A stretch of 64,000 nucleotides of DNA from Aeromicrobium tamlense. Its GTDB lineage: Bacteria; Actinomycetota; Actinomycetes; Propionibacteriales; Nocardioidaceae. Of this stretch, positions 14,479 through 50,193 are shown in pieces. Position 1 is the stretch's first letter. Each line of letters starts with the position of its first letter. The notes below the pieces were generated by a model. That model was not told the origin of the DNA, did no database searches, and saw only the letters and a list, made by a program, of their open reading frames with translations. The position numbers and the translations under genes were made by a program. The stretch lies in NCBI RefSeq assembly GCF_013408555.1, contig NZ_JACBZN010000001.1:2666001-2730000 (forward strand), in the 5' to 3' direction.

Positions 14479-14499
14479 GTCCTCCGCTTCACCTCGCCC

Positions 14500-14566
14500 C
14501 CCGAGATTTGCTCCCATGTCGACGTTTCAACCGGTCTGAAAGGTCGAAATCGGAGCACATCTCGGG
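14500..14566. repeat. Long imperfect palindrome R1 between converging genes
   Basis: Arms of about 30 nt meet at 14532-14534. The outer CCCGAGAT and CTCC blocks pair, with about five single mismatches spread along the stem. It lies between the stops of the ROK gene and the DUF4430 gene and has no T-run. Its end (CGAGATNTG) is shared with palindromes at 21635 and 57147. Confidence 0.75.
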
Positions 14567-14577
14567 ACGGGGCGGGG

Positions 14578-15228
14578 TCAGCCGCGGCGCCGGCGGCCGA
14601 CGACGAAGGCGGCGACGGCGACGAGCAGCGCGGCGGCGATGGCGATCGGCAGCGCGATGGCGGCCAGCGGGGTGTCGTCGTCCTCGATGACCGTGAGATC
14701 GCTCTGGTACGCGGAGTCATGGGTGACCTCGGCCGCGGCGCGGGTCTCGACGCTCGCCGGGACGGCGACCTCGACGGTCTCGCCGTCGGCCATCAGGTGG
14801 TACTTCAGCGCGATGAAGTCGCCCTCGGCGACCTCGTACTCCTGCAGGCCCACCGACGCGTAGCCCCAGTCCTGGTCCTCCTTCGCCACGAGGAACGCCC
14901 AGTAGCCGGGGCCGTTGAGGGCGTTGCCGCACTTCTCCTGCTCCGGCGTCGGCTGACCCTCGATGCGGCACACCATCGGCATCGCGGCGGTGGTCTCCTC
15001 GGTCTCCAGGTCCACGGCATCGAGGACCTCTAGGCCGGTGTCGCCCGCCGCGTCCTTCGCGCACAGCACGCGGTCCTCGCCGTCGAGCGTGCCGAACTCC
15101 AGCACCACCGGCACGTCCGAGGCCGCGTCGCAGGACCCGTGGTCCTCGGCCGACGCCGCCGTCGGCAGCGCGATCGCGCCGGTCGACAGCAGGGTGGCCG
15201 CGGCGAGGCGGGCGAGCAGGCTCTTCAT
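14578..15228 (-). CDS. Cell-surface DUF4430 (transcobalamin-like C-terminal) protein, distal gene of the ECF operon
   Basis: A 216-residue exported protein: signal peptide to about residue 27, a DUF4430 core with NGPGYWAFLVA and DWGYASVGLQEYEVAEGDFIA, and a C-terminal membrane segment followed by GRRRRG, so the domain would be displayed on the cell surface. DUF4430 corresponds to the beta domain of vertebrate transcobalamin/intrinsic factor. ATG at 15228 overlaps the S-component stop as ATGA, so it is made together with the transporter. Likely a cobalamin-capturing partner of the ECF importer; that function is inferred from fold, operon and riboswitch. It is a paralogue of the protein at 18996. 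Confidence 0.82.
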   Translation of the reverse strand: MKSLLARLAAATLLSTGAIALPTAASAEDHGSCDAASDVPVVLEFGTLDGEDRVLCAKDAAGDTGLEVLDAVDLETEETTAAMPMVCRIEGQPTPEQEKCGNALNGPGYWAFLVAKEDQDWGYASVGLQEYEVAEGDFIALKYHLMADGETVEVAVPASVETRAAAEVTHDSAYQSDLTVIEDDDTPLAAIALPIAIAAALLVAVAAFVVGRRRRG

Positions 15229-16037
15229 GTGGACTCCTTGAGGAGGTAGCGGGCACGCCGGGCGGCGCGCCGCAGCGTGGCCAGGACGGCGGGGCCCAGG
15301 AACACGACCAGCAGCGCGTTGGTGATCGCGCGGCCGAGGTCCCAACCCCAGAACGAGGTGAGCAGGGTGAAGACGAGGAAGCGCTGAAGGTTCTCCAGGA
15401 CGGGGTCGCCGGGCACCATCGCGAGGGAGTCCTCGGCGCCGGGGATCGCGATGCCCAGCGTGAACGGCCACGACGACAGGTTCATCAGCAGCCCGTACGC
15501 GAACGCCGCGACCACCGTGTAGGCGGCCAGCACCGCGATCTCGGCCCGGCCCGTGGCGCGGCGCGGCAGCAGGCCCGCGCCCATCCCCACCCACGCGGCG
15601 CAGAGCATCTGGAACGGCAGCCACGGGCCCACTCCGGACGTCAGGAGCGCGGACGCGAACAGGCTCGTGCAGCCCAGCACGAAGCCGAAGCCCGGACCGA
15701 ACACGCGCCCGCCGAGGATCAGCAGGAAGAAGATCGGCTCGACCCCGGCGACGCCCGCGCCCAGCGGACGGACGGCCGCGTTGATCGCGCTGAGGACGCC
15801 CAGCATCGCGAGCGCCTTGGAGTCCAGGCCGCCCTCCGACAGCTCGGCGACGACCACCAGGACGACCACGGGCATCAGCGCCATGAAGATGAAGGGCTGG
15901 TCGACGCGCGTCTGGCCCTCGGCCGGCGTGAAGATCAGCGGCCACAGCAGCATGAGCAGGCCGGCGACGCTGGCGGCCGCCAGCACGAGCGCGGAGCGCG
16001 GCGTGACGGGGACGGCGGTGTGCCGCGGCGAGGTCAT
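15225..16037 (-). CDS. ECF transporter substrate-binding membrane component (S component), probably for cobalamin
   Basis: A 270-residue protein with about six hydrophobic segments and no ABC motif, in the slot of the substrate-specific S component. The LEPIFFLLILGGRVFGPGFG-like stretch is typical of S proteins of the CbrT/YkoE-like superfamily. ATGA overlaps on both sides couple it to the ATPase and to the DUF4430 protein. Cobalamin as substrate is inferred from the two cobalamin riboswitches that precede this gene set and from its transcobalamin-like neighbours; no direct residue evidence is claimed. Confidence 0.82.
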   Translation of the reverse strand: MTSPRHTAVPVTPRSALVLAAASVAGLLMLLWPLIFTPAEGQTRVDQPFIFMALMPVVVLVVVAELSEGGLDSKALAMLGVLSAINAAVRPLGAGVAGVEPIFFLLILGGRVFGPGFGFVLGCTSLFASALLTSGVGPWLPFQMLCAAWVGMGAGLLPRRATGRAEIAVLAAYTVVAAFAYGLLMNLSSWPFTLGIAIPGAEDSLAMVPGDPVLENLQRFLVFTLLTSFWGWDLGRAITNALLVVFLGPAVLATLRRAARRARYLLKEST

Positions 16038-17635
16038 CGGACGACCTCCGACGGCAGCGCGGCGGCGACCTCGTCCACGGTGAGCCAGTCGCGGCCGAGC
16101 ACCTTGGAGACCTGCGGGGCGAACGCGGGCGACTCGGCCAGCACGGTGCGGACCGGTCCGGTGGAGACGACCTCGCCCTCGGCCATCACGACCACGGTGT
16201 CCGCGACCGAGGCGACGAACTCGACGTCGTGGCTCGACACGACCACGCCGCGTCCCTCGGCGGCGAGGTCGTGCAGGATCGCCGCCAGCGCGGCCTTGCC
16301 GGGGTAGTCGAGACCGCGCGTGGGCTCGTCGAGCGCGACCACCGCGGGCTGCGCCGTCAGGACGATCGCCAGCACCAGCGCGAGCTTCTGCCCCTCGGAC
16401 AGGTCGCGCGGGTGGCGGTCGCCGGGGATGCCCGGGGCGAGGCGGTCGAGCAGCGCACGGCACGAGCCCGGCGCCACGCCGGACTGGTCGTCGGCAGCGG
16501 CGCACTCGCGGTCGACGGTCTCCAGGTAGAGCAGGTCGGCGGCGGTCTGCGGGACGAGGCCGACGAGCATGCGCGCCTCGGACGGGCGGACGTCACCCGG
16601 GTCGACGCCGTCGACGTCGACCACGCCGTCCACCCGGTCGCCCGTGCCCTGCACGGCCCACAGCAGCGAGCTCTTGCCCGAGCCGTTGCGGCCCATCAGC
16701 GCGACGACCTCGCCGTGGCCGACCTGCAGGTCGACGTCGTCGACCGCGGTGAAGCGGCCATACTGCACGGTGACGCCGCGCGCCCGCAGCGCCGGCGGGC
16801 GCTCGAACGGCACGTGCACCGGCGGCGGCCCGAGGCGCGCGGCGAGCGGCTTGACCCGGCGGCGGGCCTCGCGCACCGACAGCGGCAGCGGGCTCCAGTC
16901 GGCGAGCCGGCCGAGATGGACCAGCGGCGGCGCGACGGGCGCGTCGACCAGCAGGTCGGCGGTCTCGCCGATGCGGACCCGACCGTCCTCGACCACGGCC
17001 AGGCGGTCGGCGAACGGGACGACCCGCTCCATGCGGTGCTCGGCCACGACGACGGTGAGCGCCAGGTCGTCGACGAGGCGCGCGATCGTGGCGAGCACGT
17101 CCTCGGCCGCGGTGGGGTCGAGGGCCGAGGTCGGCTCGTCGAGCACGAGGACCCGCGGGTGCATCGTCAGCACCGAGCCGATCGCGACCCGCTGCTGCTG
17201 GCCTCCGGACAGCGACCGCACCGAGCGGCGGCGCAGGTCGGCGATGCCGAGCAGGTCGAGCGTCTCCTCCACGCGGCGGCGCATCGTCTGCGGGTCGAGG
17301 CCGAGGTGCTCCATCCCGTAGGCGAGCTCCTCCTCGACCACGTCGGCGACGAAGCCCGAGACCGGGTCCTGGGCGACGTAGCCGACCAGGTGCGCCAGCT
17401 CGCGCGGCGGTCGGCCCAGGATCGAGGCGCCGTCGACGTGGATGTCGCCGGCGAGCGTGCCGCCGGTGAAGTGCGGCACGAGTCCGTTGAGCATGCCGAG
17501 CAGCGTGGACTTGCCCGAGCCGGTGCGGCCCGAGACCAGGACGAGCTCGCCCTCCTCGACCTCGAGGCCGACGTCGCGCAAGGTGGGACGCCTGGCGCCC
17601 TCGTACCAGAACGAGACGTCGTCGAAGCGGATCAT
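16034..17635 (-). CDS. ECF transporter ATPase, two fused domains (EcfA-EcfA')
   Basis: A 533-residue cytosolic double ABC ATPase. Domain 1: Walker A SGRTGSGKST, Q-loop AQDPVSGF, signature LSGGQQQR, Walker B VLVLDEPTSALDP. Domain 2: Walker A GRNGSGKSS, a variant signature LSEGQKLA and Walker B VVALDEPTRGLD, then the H-loop SSHD. Group II ECF modules usually use two separate or fused A subunits; the fused form is common in Actinobacteria. It energises the S component encoded next to it. ATGA overlap with both neighbours. Confidence 0.94.
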   Translation of the reverse strand: MIRFDDVSFWYEGARRPTLRDVGLEVEEGELVLVSGRTGSGKSTLLGMLNGLVPHFTGGTLAGDIHVDGASILGRPPRELAHLVGYVAQDPVSGFVADVVEEELAYGMEHLGLDPQTMRRRVEETLDLLGIADLRRRSVRSLSGGQQQRVAIGSVLTMHPRVLVLDEPTSALDPTAAEDVLATIARLVDDLALTVVVAEHRMERVVPFADRLAVVEDGRVRIGETADLLVDAPVAPPLVHLGRLADWSPLPLSVREARRRVKPLAARLGPPPVHVPFERPPALRARGVTVQYGRFTAVDDVDLQVGHGEVVALMGRNGSGKSSLLWAVQGTGDRVDGVVDVDGVDPGDVRPSEARMLVGLVPQTAADLLYLETVDRECAAADDQSGVAPGSCRALLDRLAPGIPGDRHPRDLSEGQKLALVLAIVLTAQPAVVALDEPTRGLDYPGKAALAAILHDLAAEGRGVVVSSHDVEFVASVADTVVVMAEGEVVSTGPVRTVLAESPAFAPQVSKVLGRDWLTVDEVAAALPSEVVR

Positions 17636-18777
17636 GCGTCGTCACCTCCGACGTGGTCGTGGGCGGAGGGGGCCTGCGGCGCGACGAACACCGGCAGGAT
17701 CCCGATCGCCACGACGGCCAGCGACAGGACGCTCACGGGTGGCCAGCCCGGCACGCTCGGGTAGATCACGGCGATCTGCTCGGAGGACAGCAGCTTGAGC
17801 CCCACGGCGACGGCGAGGCCCGAGCCCGCGGTGAGGTACTCGGCCAGGTGCCAGCGCTGCGGGCGGTAGCGGGTGCGCTGCACGCGTCGGCCCGCCGACC
17901 GCAGCGCCAGCACGGCGAACACGAGGCCCAGCGCCAGCATCGGGTAGGACAGGATCCGTGGCGCGGTGCCGTCGAGGTAGCCGTAGGTGCCGACGCTCAG
18001 CCCGAACAGGCCGACCAGCATGAGCACGCCGGTGGCGAACCGGTCGCGCTGCGTGGCGGTGCCGCTGCGGCCGTAGCCGCGCGCGTCCATCCCCGCGGCC
18101 AGCGTCATCGACCGGTCGAGCGCGTCCTCCAGCACGGGGATGACGATGCGGTGCATGGCGCCGGTGCCGCGGCTGGCGTCACCGCGCAGCTTGCGGGCGC
18201 GGTTGACCCGGCGCACGCTCTCGGCCAGCTGGGGGAAGACCGAGACCGCGACGACGAGCGCCGCCCCGACCTCGTAGAGCGCCGGCGGGGCCGAGGCGAG
18301 CAGCCGCTTCGGGTTGGCCAGGGAGTTCGCCGCGCCGACGCAGATCACCAGCGTGGCCAGCCGCATGCCGTCGTACAGGCCCACGAGGACCTCGTTGACC
18401 GTGACGTCGCCGAGCAGCTGGATCCCGCGGGCCACCTCCGGCAGCGGGATCTCGGGCAGCGAGAACAGCACGGGGTCGCCGGGGGCGGAGCCGCCACCGA
18501 GCAGGATCCGGAACACGACCCGCATGACCACGATGACGAGGCCGAAGTACAGGTAGTACCGGAACGACAGCGCCCACGGCGCATCGCCGCGGCAGGCGGC
18601 CACGACGAGCGCCGCGATCGCGACCGTGACCAGCAGCAGGAACGGGTTGAGCGTGAACGAGGCACCGGCCGCGAGCCCCAGCGCCCACAGCCACCAGGCG
18701 CCGGGATGCAGCTCGCGCCGCGGCCGTCCGGTGGCCGCTGGCGGCCGGGTGGGGGTGGGGTCGACGACGGCGGTCAT
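17632..18777 (-). CDS. ecfT: ECF transporter transmembrane coupling protein (EcfT)
   Basis: A 381-residue T component: four or more hydrophobic segments in the N-terminal 160 residues, then the coupling helices with VNRARKLRGD and MDARGYGRSGT, the latter holding the Ala-Arg-Gly motif that docks into the ATPases. ATG at 18777 is used because AAGGGG lies upstream and the region before it is the riboswitch; a longer open frame from 18927 reads through the riboswitch and is not coding. The C-terminal extension has further membrane segments. First gene after the second cobalamin riboswitch. Confidence 0.92.
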   Translation of the reverse strand: MTAVVDPTPTRPPAATGRPRRELHPGAWWLWALGLAAGASFTLNPFLLLVTVAIAALVVAACRGDAPWALSFRYYLYFGLVIVVMRVVFRILLGGGSAPGDPVLFSLPEIPLPEVARGIQLLGDVTVNEVLVGLYDGMRLATLVICVGAANSLANPKRLLASAPPALYEVGAALVVAVSVFPQLAESVRRVNRARKLRGDASRGTGAMHRIVIPVLEDALDRSMTLAAGMDARGYGRSGTATQRDRFATGVLMLVGLFGLSVGTYGYLDGTAPRILSYPMLALGLVFAVLALRSAGRRVQRTRYRPQRWHLAEYLTAGSGLAVAVGLKLLSSEQIAVIYPSVPGWPPVSVLSLAVVAIGILPVFVAPQAPSAHDHVGGDDA

Positions 18778-18789
18778 CCGGTCCCCTTC

Positions 18790-18985
18790 CCCACGGGACG
18801 GGGGCGAGGTCCACGAGGGCGGTTCGCCCACCCGTCGCTGCTCGACAACATCTGGTGGCGGCGTCCCGGCGCGGGTTCCCGGCTCGCACCGCCCGGGAGG
18901 GCGGGGCTGACGGTTGCGGCACAGCACCGGAATCGCACCGGTTTCCCCTGCGCCGGACGTTGGTCCAACGTCAGGAGTCTACTCG
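18790..18985 (-). promoter_or_regulatory. Cobalamin riboswitch B (leader of the ecfT-ecfA-S-DUF4430 genes)
   Basis: Read on the minus strand, 18949-18907 gives the B12-box order GGGGAAACCGGTGCGATTCC, then GCTGTGCCGCAACCGTCAG, the strongest signature of the AdoCbl/cobalamin aptamer. Downstream GAGCCGGGA and a GC-rich platform lead to the ecfT start, where the AAGGGG ribosome site can pair with CCCC/TCCC runs just upstream, suggesting translational control. It begins right after the stop of the DUF4430 gene at 18996, so it can act on its own promoter or inside a read-through transcript. Outer limits are approximate. Confidence 0.93.
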
Positions 18986-18995
18986 CACCGCGCCC

Positions 18996-19853
18996 TCAGC
19001 CCGCCCGGCGGCGGTACCAGACCACTCCCCCCGCGGCGGCCAGCACGACCACCACGGCGGCCGCGGTCGCGAGCGCGGCGCCCGAGGTCGCATCCGACCC
19101 CTCGGCCGCGGTCGGCTGCACGGCGGGCGCGCCAGCAACGTCGTCGTCCGTCCCGGCCGAGGCCGCGGGAGCCGACGCACTCGGGGTGGCGGTCGAGGCG
19201 CTCGCGGACGGCGTCGCCGTCGAGGGGGACGGGGTCGCCCCCGCCGACGCGCTCGCCGTGGCCGAGGGAGCCGAGGAGGCCGGGCTCGCGGCCCGCGTCG
19301 AAGGCGTCGACCGCTTCGGAGTCGACGCCTTCGACCCCTGCTCCTTCGAACCGGGCTTCGGGCTGGCGGAGGTGGGACGCGAGGGCGGAGGCGTGGGGGC
19401 GGGGGCCGCCACCGGGGGCTTGACCGAGGGCCACGTCCGCGACGAGGAGTCCTGGAACACGAACGCGACCGACCCGCCCTGCGGCACCTTCAAGGAGGTC
19501 ACGCCGAGACTGGAGTAGGTCCACGTTCCCTTCTTCCCGTCCGACCAGAACAGGCCCCAGTAGGCGTCGGCTGGGGACGCCTCGACGCAAGGGTCCGACG
19601 CCGGCGCGCCGTCGACCCGGCACACGAAACCGGGGGCGCGCGACGCGAAGCTCAGCTGGTGCCCCGCGTCGGCGAAGTTGCTCGCCGCGACTCCGCCGCC
19701 GGTGGCGTCGCAGCCGACGCTCGACCCGACGACGACCGTCACGCCCTTCCCGCCGGTGCACGCGGCGGCGTGCGCGGGGGCGCTGAGCGCCGCCGGCCCG
19801 GCGGCGACCCCGAGGAGGGTCGCCGCCAGGAGGCGATGGACGAGACGGGTCAC
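18996..19853 (-). CDS. Cell-surface DUF4430 (transcobalamin beta-like) protein with long Ser/Thr/Pro linker
   Basis: A 285-residue exported protein. Signal peptide to about residue 30; DUF4430 core with VCRVDGAPASDPC and AYWGLFWSDGKKGTWTYSSL plus VPQGGSVAFVF; then a linker of about 100 residues of Pro, Ser, Thr and Ala; then a membrane segment and YRRRAG tail. The build suggests a domain held away from the membrane, possibly glycosylated. GTG at 19853 overlaps the stop of the preceding alpha/alpha protein (GTGA), so both are translated in fixed proportion. Together they look like the two halves of transcobalamin made as separate proteins; this is inference. Confidence 0.82.
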   Translation of the reverse strand: MTRLVHRLLAATLLGVAAGPAALSAPAHAAACTGGKGVTVVVGSSVGCDATGGGVAASNFADAGHQLSFASRAPGFVCRVDGAPASDPCVEASPADAYWGLFWSDGKKGTWTYSSLGVTSLKVPQGGSVAFVFQDSSSRTWPSVKPPVAAPAPTPPPSRPTSASPKPGSKEQGSKASTPKRSTPSTRAASPASSAPSATASASAGATPSPSTATPSASASTATPSASAPAASAGTDDDVAGAPAVQPTAAEGSDATSGAALATAAAVVVVLAAAGGVVWYRRRAG

Positions 19854-21376
19854 TTCACGACCCGGAAGACCCGCACGCCGTTGCGCTCGGCATAGGCGCC
19901 GCGGACGATGACCTTCGTCCGGCCGACCTTCTTGCCGACCTTGAGGCGATACGTGTAGCTGCCGGCCTTCGACGCGACGCCGCGCTTGACGAGCTTGCCG
20001 CGGTAGTAGACGCGCACCGGCTCGCCGGCGACGAGGCCGCGGACGACGACCTTCTGCACCTTGGCACGGCGCACCGTCGACTTCGACGAGACGCGCAGCT
20101 TCTTGGCGGCCAGCACCTGCACCGAGGAGGTCGCGACGGCGCGGCCGGTGGCGTCGCCGACGACGACCGCACGCTTCGCGGTGCCCTTCGGCGCGCGCAC
20201 CGTGAACGTGGCGCGACCCGCGGCCGGGACGACGGCGCGGGCGGAGGTGCCACCCGAGACGCGAGCCGTGCTGCTCCAGCCGGCGGCCAGACCGCTGGCG
20301 GTGACCTTCAGGGTGCTGCCCGAGCGCACGTACTTGGGCACCGACACCGCGGCCTTCGGCGCGGAGAGCAGCGCGAGCGCCGGGGCGGCCTGCGCCGAGG
20401 CGCGGATCCACTGGTCGATCGCGAACTCGTCGATGCCGTCCTCACGGCCGGCGGTCAGCGCGGCGCCGTCGTAGGCGACCGCACCGAGCTCGGACGCGAG
20501 CTTGCCGCCCGTGGCCTCGGTGACCTGGTGGCGCGCGACGTACGCCGCGGCCTTCGCGGCCTCGGTCGTGCGGCCCGCACGGGCGAGCGCCGACGCGGCG
20601 AGGCCCGTGGAGTTCGTGTTGGCCACGCCGTTGCCGACGAACGAGCCGTCGGCGGCCTGCGCCGCGACGATCGCGGCGACGGTGCGGTCGACGACTGCCG
20701 CGTCGACGGTGATGCCCGCGGCGCGCGCCTCGAGGAGCGTGTGCAGCGCGGCGGTCGTGGTGTCGATCTCCGGCACCTCGGGGCACGGCGCGGTGAGCAC
20801 CTGGCGGAAGGTGCCGTTCTCGCACTGCTGCGCGGCCACGTAGCCGACCGACGCGGCGGCCTCGTCGCTGTCGCCCGCGATCAGGCCGCGGGTCGCGAAG
20901 GTCTGGCCGAACAGCCCGTAGGTGTCGGCGGACTCGCCGGTCTCGTCGTTCGTGGCGGCCTCGATGTCGGCCACCAGGTCACGGCCGCCGACCGAGGTCA
21001 CGTCGCCGCCCGCGGCGTCGACCGCGAGGGCGAGCTTGCCGGCCGAGCCGGGGTAGAACGTCGTGACGCCCTCCCACGTGGACTCGACGTACTCGTCCAC
21101 GCGCGACGTCACCGCGGTCAGGATCTGCTGCTGGGCCGCCGGCTGGACGTCGAGGGCACGCAGCGCGGCCAGCACGTCGAGCGTCAGCCCGAAGTCGTCG
21201 TAGTCCCACTGGTCGTTGTGGACGACGCCGCCGGTCAGCTGGGCGGCGAGCCACGTGCCGGCCGCGGAGGTGGAGGGCGTGGGGGCCGCCGAGGCGGTGG
21301 GGGCGACGGCGGTGGACAGCGCGACCGCGCCGCCTGCGAGCACCGCGAGGGCGCGTCGACGCAGGGGTGTTCTCAT
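19850..21376 (-). CDS. Secreted alpha/alpha-toroid (squalene-cyclase/prenyltransferase-like) protein, transcobalamin alpha-like
   Basis: A 508-residue exported protein with signal peptide to about residue 30. Residues about 35-330 hold helical repeats of the terpenoid-cyclase/prenyltransferase toroid type: DDFGLTLDVLAALRAL, ESADTYGLFGQTFATRGLI, TTTAALHTLLEARA, DGSFVGNGVANTNSTGLAASALA and ASELGAVAYDGAALTAG. The rest is two Ig-like strands-rich segments. It has no cyclase DxDD motif. The same fold forms the cobalamin-binding alpha domain of transcobalamin. ATG at 21376 with AAGGA upstream, directly under cobalamin riboswitch A. Cobalamin binding is predicted, not shown. Confidence 0.85.
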   Translation of the reverse strand: MRTPLRRRALAVLAGGAVALSTAVAPTASAAPTPSTSAAGTWLAAQLTGGVVHNDQWDYDDFGLTLDVLAALRALDVQPAAQQQILTAVTSRVDEYVESTWEGVTTFYPGSAGKLALAVDAAGGDVTSVGGRDLVADIEAATNDETGESADTYGLFGQTFATRGLIAGDSDEAAASVGYVAAQQCENGTFRQVLTAPCPEVPEIDTTTAALHTLLEARAAGITVDAAVVDRTVAAIVAAQAADGSFVGNGVANTNSTGLAASALARAGRTTEAAKAAAYVARHQVTEATGGKLASELGAVAYDGAALTAGREDGIDEFAIDQWIRASAQAAPALALLSAPKAAVSVPKYVRSGSTLKVTASGLAAGWSSTARVSGGTSARAVVPAAGRATFTVRAPKGTAKRAVVVGDATGRAVATSSVQVLAAKKLRVSSKSTVRRAKVQKVVVRGLVAGEPVRVYYRGKLVKRGVASKAGSYTYRLKVGKKVGRTKVIVRGAYAERNGVRVFRVVK

Positions 21377-21383
21377 CAGGGGT

Positions 21384-21409
21384 CCTTCCCGCTGCATCGG
21401 ACGGGAAGG
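21384..21409 (-). promoter_or_regulatory. Expression-platform hairpin that hides the ribosome binding site
   Basis: CCTTCCCG and CGGGAAGG form a perfect 8-bp stem with a 10-nt loop. On the mRNA the 3' arm contains the AAGGA ribosome site 6-7 nt before the ATG at 21376, so pairing would block initiation. Confidence 0.75.
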
Positions 21410-21580
21410 GGCCTGATCGTCGTGCGACCTCGGCTCCGTCCGCTGCGTTCCTCGACAGCGTGTGGTCGGTTCCGACAGGCAGGTGCTCCGGCTCGCCGAC
21501 CCGTCTCGGGCGGTCTCACGGTTGCGGGTCAGCGCCGGATTCGCACCGGCTTCCCCTGGCACTGCGGAAGGTGTGTGGTT
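21410..21580 (-). promoter_or_regulatory. Cobalamin riboswitch A (leader of the alpha/alpha-toroid and DUF4430 genes)
   Basis: On the minus strand 21559-21515 reads GGGGAAGCCGGTGCGAATCC, then GCGCTGACCCGCAACCGTGA, the canonical B12 box. It is followed by GAGCCGGAGCACCTGCC, matching the conserved GAG..GGA.ACCTGCC block of the aptamer, and then by the hairpin at 21384-21409. Predicted effect: cobalamin bound, genes off. Outer limits are approximate. Confidence 0.96.
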
Positions 21581-25922: not shown

Positions 25923-25984
25923 GCCACCCGGAGCACCCCGTGTTCGCAGGGCGGATGCCGGTGGCGTCCCAGGTGGGCGTACGG

Positions 25985-26003
25985 TTAGGCTTGGCTTACC
26001 TAC
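25985..26003 (+). promoter_or_regulatory. DtxR/IdeR iron box upstream of the siderophore ABC operon
   Basis: TTAGGCTTGGCTTACCTAC matches 15 of 19 positions of the DtxR/IdeR consensus (TTAGGTTAGGCTAACCTAA). It lies 20 nt before the TTG start of the binding-protein gene, so iron-bound DtxR/IdeR would repress the operon. Confidence 0.85.
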
Positions 26004-26023
26004 ACGTCACGAAAGGCACTCCC

Positions 26024-27040
26024 TTGCGTCTCGCACCCCTGCTCGCTGCTGCGGCACTCGCTCTGAGCCTCGCCGCCTGCGGCTCCTCCGACGACGATTC
26101 GAACGACGCCTCGGGTGCGTCGGGCGAGGGCTTCCCCGTCAGCGTCAAGCACACGTTCGGCACGACCGAGATCGAGTCCGAGCCGCAGCGCGTCGTCGCC
26201 GTCGCCTGGTCGAACCAGGACACCGCGCTCGCGCTGGGCGTCGTGCCGGTCGCGATGCCCAAGGTCACCTACGGCGACGACGACACCGACGGCCTGCACC
26301 CGTGGGTCAAGGACAAGATCGACGAGCTCGGCGGCGAGACGCCCGCCCTCTTCGACGAGACCGACGGCATCGACGCCGCCGCCGTCGCGAAGGCCGAGCC
26401 CGACCTCATCCTCGCGGTCCACTCGGGCCTGACGAAGGAGGAGTACGAGACCCTCAGCAAGATCGCGCCCACCGTCGCCTACCCCGACAAGGCGTGGGGC
26501 ACGCCGTGGCGTGACGCCATCGAGCTCACGGGCCAGGCCCTGGGCAAGACCGACGAGGCCGACCAGCTGATCGGCGACCTCGAGCAGCAGATCTCCGACG
26601 CCGTCGCGAAGCGCCCCGAGATCCAGGGCAAGAGCGCCGTCATGAGCTGGATCGACCCGAGCGACCTGAGCAAGATCGGCTACTACACGGCGTTCGACAC
26701 CCGAGCCACGTTCCTGAACGACCTCGGCCTCGAGACGCCCGAGTTCGTCGAGAAGGCCTCGGCCGACACCGACCAGTTCTTCCTCGAGATCAGCGCCGAG
26801 AAGGCCGACGAGCTCGCGGGCGCCGACATCTTCGTGGGCTACGGCGACGACGCCGCACTCAAGAAGGTCCAGGCCGACCCGCTGCTCGGCAAGGTCCCCG
26901 CCTTCGAGCGCGGCAGCGCCGCGCTGCTCGAGGACAACACGCCGCTCGCCGCGGCCGTGTCGCCCTCGGCCCTGTCGATCCCGTGGATGCTGGACGACTA
27001 CGTCACCCTGCTCGCCGACGCGGCTGCGAAGGTGAAGTGA
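26024..27040 (+). CDS. Iron-siderophore ABC transporter substrate-binding lipoprotein
   Basis: A 338-residue lipoprotein of the FecB/FhuD (type III helical-backbone) class: signal peptide with lipobox LAAC near residue 19, then VKHTFGTTEIESEPQRVVAVAWSN-like beginning, KAEPDLILAVHSGLT, and a C-terminal SPSALSIPWMLDDYV block. It captures ferric siderophore outside the membrane. TTG at 26024 is chosen because GAAAGG lies 7 nt upstream, no ATG or GTG is suitably placed, and the signal peptide begins there; an upstream GTG would read through the DtxR box. Overlaps the permease start by 4 nt. Confidence 0.93.
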   Translation: MRLAPLLAAAALALSLAACGSSDDDSNDASGASGEGFPVSVKHTFGTTEIESEPQRVVAVAWSNQDTALALGVVPVAMPKVTYGDDDTDGLHPWVKDKIDELGGETPALFDETDGIDAAAVAKAEPDLILAVHSGLTKEEYETLSKIAPTVAYPDKAWGTPWRDAIELTGQALGKTDEADQLIGDLEQQISDAVAKRPEIQGKSAVMSWIDPSDLSKIGYYTAFDTRATFLNDLGLETPEFVEKASADTDQFFLEISAEKADELAGADIFVGYGDDAALKKVQADPLLGKVPAFERGSAALLEDNTPLAAAVSPSALSIPWMLDDYVTLLADAAAKVK

Positions 27041-28071
27041 CGACGACGACCGACTCCGCCGTGGGGGGTGCCGCGCAGACGCGGCGCCCCCCGTGGTGGT
27101 TCCTGGTCAGCCTCGTGGCCCTCGTGGCCGCGGTGCTCCTCTCCGTCGCGTTCGGCGCCCGCGTCGTCAGCCTCGGCGAGGTCTGGGACGCCCTCACCAC
27201 GGGCGGCGGGGACGACGTCACCTCGGCCGCGATCCGGTCGCGCGTGCCGCGCACGATCCTGGCCGTGCTCGTCGGCGCCGCCCTCGCGATGGCCGGCGCG
27301 GTGCTGCAGGCGGTCACCCGCAACCCGCTGGCCGACCCGTTCATCCTGGGCATCAACTCCGGCGCCTCGCTGCTCGTGGTCATCGGCATCGCCTTCGCCG
27401 GCGCCGCCACGATGCCCGAGTACATCGCGTTCGCGCTGGCGGGCGCCGCCCTGGCGGCCGTGTTCGTCTACGTCGTGGGCTCGCTCGGACCCGGCGGTCC
27501 CACCCCGCTGAAGCTCGCCTTGGCGGGCGCCATCAGCACCGCGGCCTTCACCTCGCTGTCGAGCGCCATCCTGCTGCCGCGGATCGACGTCATGCGCGTG
27601 TTCCGGTACTGGCAGGTCGGCAGCGTCGGCCGCGCCGAGAACTCCGACACGCTGCTCGTGCTGCCGATCCTCCTGGTCGGCGCCGCGATCTGCTTCCTGT
27701 CGGCCCGCTCCCTGAACATCCTCGCCCTCGGCGACGAGGCCGCCGCCGGCCTCGGCGTATCCGTGGTGCGCACCCGCCTGCTGGCCGCGGCCGGCGCGAT
27801 CGTCCTGTGCGGCGCCGCCACGGCACTCGCCGGGCCGATCGGCTTCGTGGGCCTCATCGTGCCGCACCTGTGCCGCCTCGTCGTGGGCGCCGACCACCGC
27901 TGGCTGCTGCCCATCTGCGCCACCGTGGGCGCCACGCTGCTGACCGTCGCCGACGTCGTCGGCCGCGTGCTCGGCCGCCCCGGCGAGATCGACGTCGGCG
28001 TCATCACCGCCCTCATCGGCGGCCCCGTGTTCCTGTGGGTCGTCCTGCGTCGCACCGGAGGTGCGTCATGA
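27037..28071 (+). CDS. Iron-siderophore ABC transporter permease (FecC/FecD type)
   Basis: A 344-residue FecCD-family permease with about ten hydrophobic segments. Blocks include RVPRTILAVLVGAALAMAGA, RNPLADPFILGINSGAS and LAGPIGFVGLIVPHLCRL, the last containing the Gly-rich ATPase-coupling loop. GTG at 27037 overlaps the stop of the binding-protein gene (GTGA). It pairs with the permease encoded next. Confidence 0.94.
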   Translation: MTTTTDSAVGGAAQTRRPPWWFLVSLVALVAAVLLSVAFGARVVSLGEVWDALTTGGGDDVTSAAIRSRVPRTILAVLVGAALAMAGAVLQAVTRNPLADPFILGINSGASLLVVIGIAFAGAATMPEYIAFALAGAALAAVFVYVVGSLGPGGPTPLKLALAGAISTAAFTSLSSAILLPRIDVMRVFRYWQVGSVGRAENSDTLLVLPILLVGAAICFLSARSLNILALGDEAAAGLGVSVVRTRLLAAAGAIVLCGAATALAGPIGFVGLIVPHLCRLVVGADHRWLLPICATVGATLLTVADVVGRVLGRPGEIDVGVITALIGGPVFLWVVLRRTGGAS

Positions 28072-48395: not shown

Positions 48396-49376
48396 TCAGC
48401 GGCCCATGAACCCGGCGGCGGGCGTGGCGCCGGTCAGGGCGTCGTGGGCGAGCAGGGCGGTGCCGGCGGTCCACGTGGACTGCTCGACGGGCCAGCGCTT
48501 GCCGTCGTTGTAGACCAGGCCGGTCCACCAGGCGCCGTCGGGATCGCGCAGGTGGCCGATGTCGGCGTAGAGACTCTCGGCCGCGGCGGTGCGGCCGGCG
48601 CGCACGAGGGCGAGCACGAGCTCGAGGGTCTCGCCGCCGGTGACCCACGGGTTCACGGTGACGCAGCGCGTGCCGAAGCCGGGGACGACGAACTCGTCCC
48701 ACCGCTCGTCGAGGCGAGCGGCCGCGGCCTCGCCGTCGAGCACGCCCGTCATCACCGGGTAGTACCAGTCCATCGAGAAGCGAGGCTTGGGCGTGAACAG
48801 CTCGGGACGATCGACGAGAGCCGCCGCGATCCCGTCGGCCGCGTGCCGCCAGTGCGGGCGCGGGTGGCCCCACGTCTCGGCGAGACGGGCGGCGCACCGC
48901 AGGCTGAACACGATGCTCGAGTTGCCGGTGACGAGGCACTCGCCGGCGACCTTGCCGTCGACGCCGCGGGCCCACGCGACGGGACCGTTCCCCACCTGGA
49001 GCTCGAGCACGACGTCGACCGCGCGCTCCAGCATCGGCAGGAAGCGGCTCGCGTCGACGCCCAGCAGTTCGAGGTGGAACAGGCCGGTGGCGACGTAGGC
49101 GCAGTAGTTGGCGTCGGTCTCGGGCTCCTCGACGCCGTCGTCGTCGGCGCCCGGCCAGTACTTGCGGCCCCACGAGCCGTCGGGCCGCTGCGCATGGCGG
49201 AGCCAGTCGTAGGCCGCGACGGCCTCGTCGACGAACCCGGCGGTGGCCAGGCCCATCGCGGCCTGCACGTGGTCCCACGGGTCGAGGTGACCGCCGTCGA
49301 ACCACGGGATCGCCCCGGTGCTCAGCTGGACCGACGCGATCCACTTGCCCGTCTGGTGGGCCTCGGTGGGCGTCAC
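48396..49376 (-). CDS. Cytosolic alpha/alpha-toroid (prenyltransferase/squalene-cyclase-like) protein
   Basis: A 326-residue protein without signal peptide. Repeats of the QW/toroid type are visible: SVQLSTGAIPWFDGGHLDPWDHVQAAMGL-like start, WLRHAQRPDGSWGRKYW, GLFHLELLGVD, and LRDPDGAWWTGLVYND. It lacks the DxDD acid motif of squalene cyclases. Such proteins occur beside a methyltransferase and a GT4 enzyme in many Actinobacteria; function unknown. GTG at 49376 is chosen because GAGG lies 6 nt upstream; the longer frame to 49448 reads through the R7 palindrome. Third gene of that cassette. Confidence 0.84.
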   Translation of the reverse strand: MTPTEAHQTGKWIASVQLSTGAIPWFDGGHLDPWDHVQAAMGLATAGFVDEAVAAYDWLRHAQRPDGSWGRKYWPGADDDGVEEPETDANYCAYVATGLFHLELLGVDASRFLPMLERAVDVVLELQVGNGPVAWARGVDGKVAGECLVTGNSSIVFSLRCAARLAETWGHPRPHWRHAADGIAAALVDRPELFTPKPRFSMDWYYPVMTGVLDGEAAAARLDERWDEFVVPGFGTRCVTVNPWVTGGETLELVLALVRAGRTAAAESLYADIGHLRDPDGAWWTGLVYNDGKRWPVEQSTWTAGTALLAHDALTGATPAAGFMGR

Positions 49377-49392
49377 CGCGCGCGCCTCGCTC

Positions 49393-49453
49393 CACTTCTG
49401 GAACGGGGTGCACCGTTCTGAGGCGCGAAAGCGTTCAACCCGTTCCACAAGTG
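49393..49453. repeat. Long imperfect palindrome R7 inside the GT4-methyltransferase-toroid cassette
   Basis: CACTTCTGGAACGGGGTG (left) and CAACCCGTTCCACAAGTG (right) pair over about 25 nt with single mismatches at intervals. It lies between the methyltransferase stop (49480) and the toroid start (49376), so it may separate their expression. Confidence 0.75.
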
Positions 49454-49479
49454 GGGAGGGGGCGAGGACGCGGGCTGCA

Positions 49480-50193
49480 TCAGAAGGGCTTCTGGAAGTA
49501 CAGGGCCACGCTCTTGCCGAGCACGGGGTTGAGGGCCTTCTCGGCCCAGCGGGTGGTGCGGGGGGCCTTCATCATGTCCCACACCAGCAGCTGGTGGTAG
49601 CCGCGCACGAGGGGGTGCTGGTCGCGCTCGACGCCGACGGCGCACTTGATCCACCAGTACGGCGAGTGCAGCGCGTGGGCGTGGTGCTGGTGCGTGAACC
49701 GCAGGCCCGTGGCCTCCAGCTTCGCGCGCAGCTCGTCGGCCTTGTAGATGCGGATGTGGCCGCCCTCGTTCGCGTGGTACTCGTCCGAGAGCCTCCAGCA
49801 GACCGCCTCGGGCATCCATCGCGGCACCGTGACGGCCAGGACGCCGCCGGGCGCGAGGATGCGCTCGAGCTCGCTGATCGCCTGCACGTCCTCGGGCACG
49901 TGCTCGAGGATCTCCGAGGCGAGCACGACGTCGAACGTGCCGTCCTCGTAGGGCATGTCGAGGATCGTGCCGACCTGCACCTCGCCGCTGCCGCCCGGCG
50001 GGACCTCGCCCTCGAGCGCCATCGCGCCGAACATGTCCTCGACGCCCTTGAGCTCGACCTCGTCGAGGTCGAACGCGGTGACGTGCGCACCCCGGCGCAG
50101 GGCCTCGTAGGAGTGGCGGCCGGCGCCGGCGCCCACGTCGATGAAGCGCGTGCCGCGGCCCACCCGGAGGCGGTCGAAGTCAACGGTCAGCAT
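49480..50193 (-). CDS. Class I SAM-dependent methyltransferase of the GT4/toroid cassette
   Basis: A 237-residue Rossmann methyltransferase. Motif I is FIDVGAGAGRHSYEAL, motif II VTAFDLDEVEL, then MPYEDGTFDVVLASEILEHV and LAPGGVLAVTVPRWMPE, the UbiE/COQ5-like order, followed by a C-terminal extension with WWIKCAVGVERDQHPLVRGY. Substrate unknown; neighbours suggest a glycosylated lipid or isoprenoid. ATG at 50193 overlaps the GT4 gene by 14 nt, so it is co-transcribed and probably coupled. Confidence 0.9.
   Translation of the reverse strand: MLTVDFDRLRVGRGTRFIDVGAGAGRHSYEALRRGAHVTAFDLDEVELKGVEDMFGAMALEGEVPPGGSGEVQVGTILDMPYEDGTFDVVLASEILEHVPEDVQAISELERILAPGGVLAVTVPRWMPEAVCWRLSDEYHANEGGHIRIYKADELRAKLEATGLRFTHQHHAHALHSPYWWIKCAVGVERDQHPLVRGYHQLLVWDMMKAPRTTRWAEKALNPVLGKSVALYFQKPF

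Follow-up and report, generated by a model that had tools for sequence, protein, structure and literature searches.

A putative capture-and-import system for vitamin B12 (cobalamin) was analyzed in Aeromicrobium tamlense, within a stretch of 64,000 nucleotides (contig NZ_JACBZN010000001.1, positions 2,666,001 to 2,730,000 of the forward strand) that is referred to below as the window. The locus, at window positions 14578-21580 on the minus strand, is best explained as a trap for cobalamin (corrinoids) made of toroid and beta-domain proteins, which would feed a CbrT-type energy-coupling factor (ECF) importer and be repressed by B12; from gene context and homology, a probability of roughly 0.78 was assigned to this reading. 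In the proposed mechanism, one cobalamin would be enclosed outside the membrane between the toroid protein and a beta-grasp (DUF4430-like) protein tethered to the membrane, in the way that transcobalamin encloses it between its alpha and beta domains. The trapped cobalamin would then be handed to the S component, a CbrT relative, in the membrane, with import driven by the EcfT/fused EcfA motor, and plentiful cobalamin would bind two riboswitches and turn both gene blocks off. An initial annotation, made from the DNA alone, had already proposed transcobalamin-like halves acting with a cobalamin ECF importer; this core proposal gained in probability from fused relatives, gene order, the riboswitches and a link to CbrT, as set out below.

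The genome (3.37 Mb, single contig) carries the six genes in the order toroid, beta-domain protein a (beta-a), EcfT, fused EcfA, S component and beta-domain protein b (beta-b), and translation confirmed all six as open frames at the positions given below. The toroid gene (19850-21376) encodes a 508-residue alpha/alpha-toroid protein with a signal-like N-terminus and two cysteines, identified from its translation and family profile, and is followed by beta-a (18996-19853; 285 residues, DUF4430-like domain, four cysteines). EcfT (17632-18777) belongs to the CbiQ family (PF02361, 30.2 bits against a cut-off of 25), the fused pair of ECF ATPases (16034-17635) contains two ABC_tran stretches, and the CbrT-like S component (15225-16037) matched PF12822 with 33 bits against a cut-off of 30.7. 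Beta-b (14578-15228; 216 residues) again has a DUF4430-like domain and four cysteines. Four of the five junctions (toroid/beta-a, T/A, A/S and S/beta-b) were measured as overlaps of 4 nt, so that the claimed coupling of toroid to beta-a and of T-A-S to beta-b held, and the fifth, beta-a/EcfT, is a gap of 218 nt with a riboswitch inside it. Directly after beta-b, an inverted repeat seen by eye (about 14499-14566) is a possible terminator or operator.

The two B12 boxes that had been claimed ahead of both blocks proved to be matches to the cobalamin riboswitch family RF00174 above its gathering score of 31.5 bits (cmscan). The first, ahead of the toroid gene (21512-21555, minus strand), scored 33.2 bits and covers the core only (model 46-168), and the second, between beta-a and EcfT (18853-18988, minus strand), scored 35.5 bits with model ends 1-189. 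The whole genome contains five such matches at E ≤ 1, four of them over threshold. Folding of 21350-21580 with RNAfold predicted a hairpin at 21376-21416 (minus strand) that covers the likely ribosome-binding site and ends at the toroid ATG, an arrangement that would suit a translational switch. In 12 of 18 scanned toroid loci, including both of those with fused genes described below, an over-threshold riboswitch lies a short way ahead of the toroid gene, and a second one before EcfT was found in the window and in the related loci L069 and L070.

Relatives were drawn from two comparison sets, 149 genomes of the same family and 296 genomes of the phylum. The S component was present in 128 of the 149 same-family genomes at E ≤ 1e-10, and 24 loci (L069-L092) were chosen by it for closer comparison. 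As the outcome of the search for this gene order in other Actinobacteria that had been called for, T, A and S occurred together in all 24 and were joined each time by a DUF4430-like gene; 15 of the loci also had a toroid gene. Among 34 toroid frames, two (L080:6102-7946 and L078:13284-15299, from two genera) hold the toroid and a DUF4430-like domain in one open frame, with the toroid first and the DUF4430-like domain after it, which is the domain order of transcobalamin. Three further loci (L093-L095) carry toroids that exceed the cut-off of the model SCO2321_fam, alongside the same set of ECF genes and one for a DUF4430-like protein.

Assignment of the toroid fold was sub-threshold for the window protein alone and firm for its family. 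By itself the protein fell below Pfam cut-offs (Prenyltrans, E 0.014), and against SCO2321_fam it gave E 1.4e-8 but only 34.1 bits against a cut-off of 300. The profile of 33 toroid relatives (alignment A1, 33 of 34 matches, one toroid of L078 being left out) matched squalene-hopene cyclase in the PDB at E 2.8e-43, in addition to TED domains and other toroids, and SQHop_cyclase_C was matched by 23 of the 33 members at E ≤ 0.1. A function as a terpene cyclase was considered and set aside because of the fusion with a DUF4430-like domain and the operon context. Hydropathy scanning revealed a hydrophobic N-terminal stretch, and the C-terminal part of the protein is strongly basic (38 K/R against 3 D/E in 168 residues). 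No close match of the window toroid protein was found on plasmids by tblastn. Elsewhere in the window, the toroid profile also weakly matched 48399-49568 (minus strand; E 2.1e-4), for which Pfam gave nothing at E ≤ 0.01.

Beta-a and beta-b were found to be one family by iterated searches. In beta-a the domain is followed by a long S/T/P/A-rich stalk and a C-terminal hydrophobic helix, and in beta-b by a short linker and a similar helix; these helices correspond to the secretion signal or surface anchor of the SLBB proteins described by Burroughs et al. in 2007. Both N-termini are signal-like by eye, although only the toroid protein had an N-terminal stretch picked out in the hydropathy scan. 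A tree of 34 of the 48 DUF4430-like rows, with bootstrap values not fully settled, separated two clades, that of beta-a with 14 rows (99/96) and that of beta-b with 7 rows (97/96), the latter comprising the window, five same-genus rows and one from an Aeromicrobium metagenome-assembled genome (MAG). A relative 56% identical to beta-b was found in an A. choanae MAG.

The initial annotation had called both proteins DUF4430 outright. Direct Pfam assignment failed, with beta-b scoring 14.9 bits against the PF14478 cut-off of 23.8 and beta-a giving no match; no PF14478 match was found anywhere in the genome at E ≤ 0.001, and only one of 46 DUF4430-like relatives matched, below threshold. It was therefore replaced by a profile-profile comparison with controls. 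In hhalign, the DUF4430-like family (37 of 48 rows, permuted or broken ones being left out) aligned with true DUF4430 (28 of 30 rows, without two wrongly cut ones) at a probability of 76.3 (E 2.2e-5), the 71 aligned columns spanning nearly all of the domain. None of the twelve controls (two reversed, ten column-shuffled) exceeded a probability of 7.2, and pairing true DUF4430 with three unrelated profiles gave no more than 0.2. The same comparison yielded 61.7 (E 7.7e-5) with untrimmed rows and 59.7 (E 8.9e-5) with the stored alignments A2 (46 of 48 rows, two L082 fragments being left out) and A6 (28 of 30 true DUF4430 rows); two further alignments, A7 (14 rows) and A8 (16 rows), consist of chosen rows. 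Judged by these profiles, the window beta domain is a distant homologue of DUF4430, so the claimed kinship stood and Pfam membership did not. Searched against the PDB, the A6 profile weakly matched transcobalamin-1 (E 0.099; residues 369-427, the beta domain by position); the same search gave 3u7z at E 0.028 and, at E 0.24, an unrelated protein. SCO2322_fam gave a weak, sub-threshold match to the beta-b protein. In L086, L090 and L093 the DUF4430-like domain looks circularly permuted by eye, with the YW...G...G half leading and the VVxDYG...C...IDGxP half trailing, whereas the window proteins have the opposite order.

The S component could be connected to CbrT, a name reportedly given by Rodionov et al. 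in 2009. A profile of 39 S relatives matched the CbrT of L. plantarum plasmid pMF1298-5 at E 1e-19 (scaled to 1e6 sequences), and the same profile did not match the plasmid's other S component, CblT, even when filters were removed. CbrV, CbrU, CbrT and a separate CblT have been named on this plasmid (PMC6722938), and which gene is CbrT and which CblT was read from gene order. The pMF1298-5 CbrT in turn matched chain A of PDB entry 6FNP at E 1.8e-9. That entry is ECF-CbrT, with the CbrT of L. delbrueckii, for which import of cobalamin and cobinamide has been shown (PMC5997447); its chain A, a 182-residue membrane protein, was read as CbrT itself. Homology of the window S component to a proven CbrT was thus reached transitively, by way of the plasmid protein.

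The best single piece of evidence for cobalamin is the operon of pMF1298-5. It runs T-A-S-toroid-DUF4430, and the same plasmid carries nrdJ, an adenosyltransferase gene and cobS. Its toroid is annotated 'fucose-binding lectin II' (L174:29455-30507), probably wrongly, as it matched the window toroid profile at E 2.1e-10 and no Pfam family at E ≤ 1; the protein after it is a true DUF4430 (PF14478, E 4.4e-16). Seven plasmid records contain the lectin-labelled protein, and on all three examined (L174, L175:5977-7023 and L176:5977-7023) it is followed by DUF4430, the L175 and L176 records each holding a second copy. In L175 and L176 the pair is preceded by a DUF5776 gene; the L175 stretch has cobS and no annotated ECF gene, and in that of L176 genes for EcfT and the ATPase lie on the opposite strand.

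Related arrangements were also found across the phylum. Among the matches listed, the SCO2321 toroid model matched 97 of the 296 genomes and true DUF4430 occurred in 51, with both in 33 (Fisher p 3e-7) and, in at least 28 of these 33, on one contig within 10 kb; this co-occurrence is rough, because the toroid model also matches ordinary toroid proteins. Of 20 DUF4430 loci inspected, 15 had toroid and ECF genes, three had ECF genes and no toroid, and two had neither, counts that give no unbiased rate because the loci were picked with a preference for genomes also having toroid matches. Three loci read gene by gene (L145, L147 and L149) encode a secreted-type PQQ-propeller protein, DUF4430, T, A, S and toroid. 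Riboswitches of 88-116 bits lie upstream on the operon strand in seven of nine loci scanned (L145-L151); of the other two, L143 has one on the other strand and L144 has none. The L143 operon opens with a DUF4430-like gene, and its true DUF4430 gene follows the toroid. The propeller proteins (L145:1550-4252, L147:1933-4491 and L149:11382-13991), recognized by PQQ_2 and DUF5719 matches in L145 and L147 and by eye in L149, stand between riboswitch and DUF4430 and are possibly another surface part of the system. On a Streptomyces plasmid, toroid, hypothetical, T, A and S genes follow a riboswitch, each start overlapping the preceding stop by 4 nt, and metE comes next, on the opposite strand and with a riboswitch of its own.

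Several results weigh against a cobalamin trap. Nine of the 24 same-family loci lack a toroid gene, and genome-wide none was found at E ≤ 0.001 in eight of these nine, the ninth genome (G089) having one elsewhere; six of the 18 toroid loci scanned (L071, L074, L082, L083, L085 and L103) have no over-threshold riboswitch before the toroid. In sequence, terpene cyclases and TED domains are closer kin of the toroid family than the cobalamin-binding proteins of eukaryotes. The family of the latter, PF01122, was matched by only two of the 33 toroid relatives, below the cut-off of 25 (best, 18.6 bits), and not at all by the window toroid at E ≤ 5, and transcobalamin was not among the PDB matches listed for the toroid profiles (the best 60 of 69, the best 60 of 63, and all 57). 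The true DUF4430 profile directly found only two DUF4430-like frames (L001, E 0.0035; L069, E 0.029). As the window S family had no PDB match at E ≤ 1, its link to CbrT is transitive only. Finally, translations read by eye indicated that the genome holds genes resembling those of cobalamin synthesis, together with a BtuF-like gene (PF01497) behind a separate 95-bit riboswitch, and a need for uptake is therefore not obvious. AlphaFold2 models built with one or three sequences were too low in confidence for use (pLDDT 40.6 and 35.8), the latter also for recognizing the beta-hairpin insert with which the transcobalamin-like SLBB proteins contact B12, and a search of viral contigs for relatives that would deepen the alignment returned none.

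The genome region 1332000-1358000 (L067/L068) holds three RF00174 matches, two over threshold. Genes judged by eye to be BtuF-like, CobN-like, chelatase-like and CbtA-like stand beside them. In the window itself, 25940-28071 (plus strand) encodes a binding protein (PF01497 at 26192-26914) and then a FecCD-like permease recognized by eye, near which the window scan found no RF00174 match. The same machinery could serve mainly for a corrinoid precursor or another cobamide, such as cobinamide, salvaged into the host's own pathway; with other cobalamin riboswitches and synthesis-like genes in the genome, intact B12 may not be needed. RF00174 aptamers, however, as a rule sense finished cobalamins, and no salvage gene was recognized in the window operon. 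Although cobinamide is also imported by CbrT and by BtuCDF (PMC5997447, PMC6593275), a ligand of this kind was considered rather unlikely.

It was judged far less probable that the toroid is a secreted enzyme or wall-binding scaffold and that the DUF4430-like proteins are ECF accessories acting without it. The top profile matches, to squalene-hopene cyclase and TED domains, would fit such a role, as would the retention of a DUF4430-like gene at the eight ECF loci whose genomes lack any toroid. This leaves unaccounted for the toroid/DUF4430-like fusion in two genera, the riboswitch control, and the pairing of toroids with true DUF4430 in phylum genomes and on lactobacillus plasmids. A B12-regulated importer of cobalt or another substrate, to which the placement of EcfT in the CbiQ 'cobalt transport' family and the frequent position of B12 riboswitches ahead of cobalt uptake genes might point, is scarcely credible given the CbrT-like S component, the transcobalamin-like surface proteins, which are unexpected for a metal ion, and a His-rich, CbtA-like gene (by eye) that lies behind another, sub-gathering riboswitch match.

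Within the preferred reading of a cobalamin trap, the two beta-domain proteins may differ in where they act. The long stalk of beta-a and the short linker of beta-b are consistent with different distances from the membrane, as the initial annotation had suggested, and no more than that. A two-step relay, in which a single free toroid would pair with both lids, the long-stalked beta-a reaching into the wall and the short-linker beta-b next to the S component, with captured cobalamin moving inward between the lids, was regarded as a tentative and somewhat doubtful extension; under it, the host can probably also make B12.

The kind of system is not new. In 2007, Burroughs et al. delineated a beta-grasp clade resembling transcobalamin, present in low-GC Gram-positives, planctomycetes and some archaea; its members can be fused to toroids or anchored at the surface, may come with a second paralogue and have CbiO/CbiQ neighbours. 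A role in scavenging B12 was predicted for them, in bacteria that usually lack key B12 synthesis enzymes (PMC1796856). The claim that such a capture step was new to this organism group was accordingly narrowed: in the available text of that paper the word 'actinobacteria' appears once, about ComEA, and the group is not named for the clade, but the general idea was published there. The window system resembles these SLBB proteins in its secreted or surface beta-grasp and toroid proteins, in the ECF genes beside beta-b, which form an operon of the CbiO/CbiQ-like type, and in its second paralogue, such as some of them have. It differs in that no toroid/beta fusion occurs in the window, where the halves are separate genes overlapping by 4 nt, in a beta domain below the Pfam cut-off, in the riboswitches before both blocks, and in a host that seems to make B12. 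With the CbrTUV transporter, as far as the available texts describe it, it shares T, a duplicated ATPase, a homologous S and, on pMF1298-5, the toroid and DUF4430 downstream, whereas the window S is recognizable only by profile, the gene order is another and the DUF4430-like domain is far more divergent. Animal transcobalamin, haptocorrin and intrinsic factor likewise combine an alpha/alpha toroid with a DUF4430-type beta domain, toroid first, but the window parts are split and partly membrane-tethered, and its toroid does not match their family directly. SCO2321_fam and SCO2322_fam are related through weak, sub-threshold matches and the ECF and DUF4430-like genes of L093-L095, although the beta protein of L093 looks permuted by eye. 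In L. rhamnosus, a DUF4430 protein and an 'additional lipoprotein component of putative cobalamin ECF transporter' have been reported beside rtpR (PMC9963975). No assignment of a B12-trap function to actinobacterial proteins was present among the literature matches listed, in a search outside which many subscription papers lie, and the same search found no binding test of the 2007 prediction.

What is added is an actinobacterial form that is divergent, split and under riboswitch control, and whose host seems able to make B12 as well. For the SCO2321- and SCO2322-type families, whose names carry no function and which adjoin ECF genes in many genomes of the phylum, a Streptomyces plasmid included, the analysis offers a testable one, linking them to an ECF importer whose transport of B12 has been demonstrated. 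It also makes split and fused transcobalamin-like traps available for comparison with the animal carrier, and, if the relay were true, relatives with fused forms would directly illustrate the route from separate parts to a carrier of the transcobalamin type.

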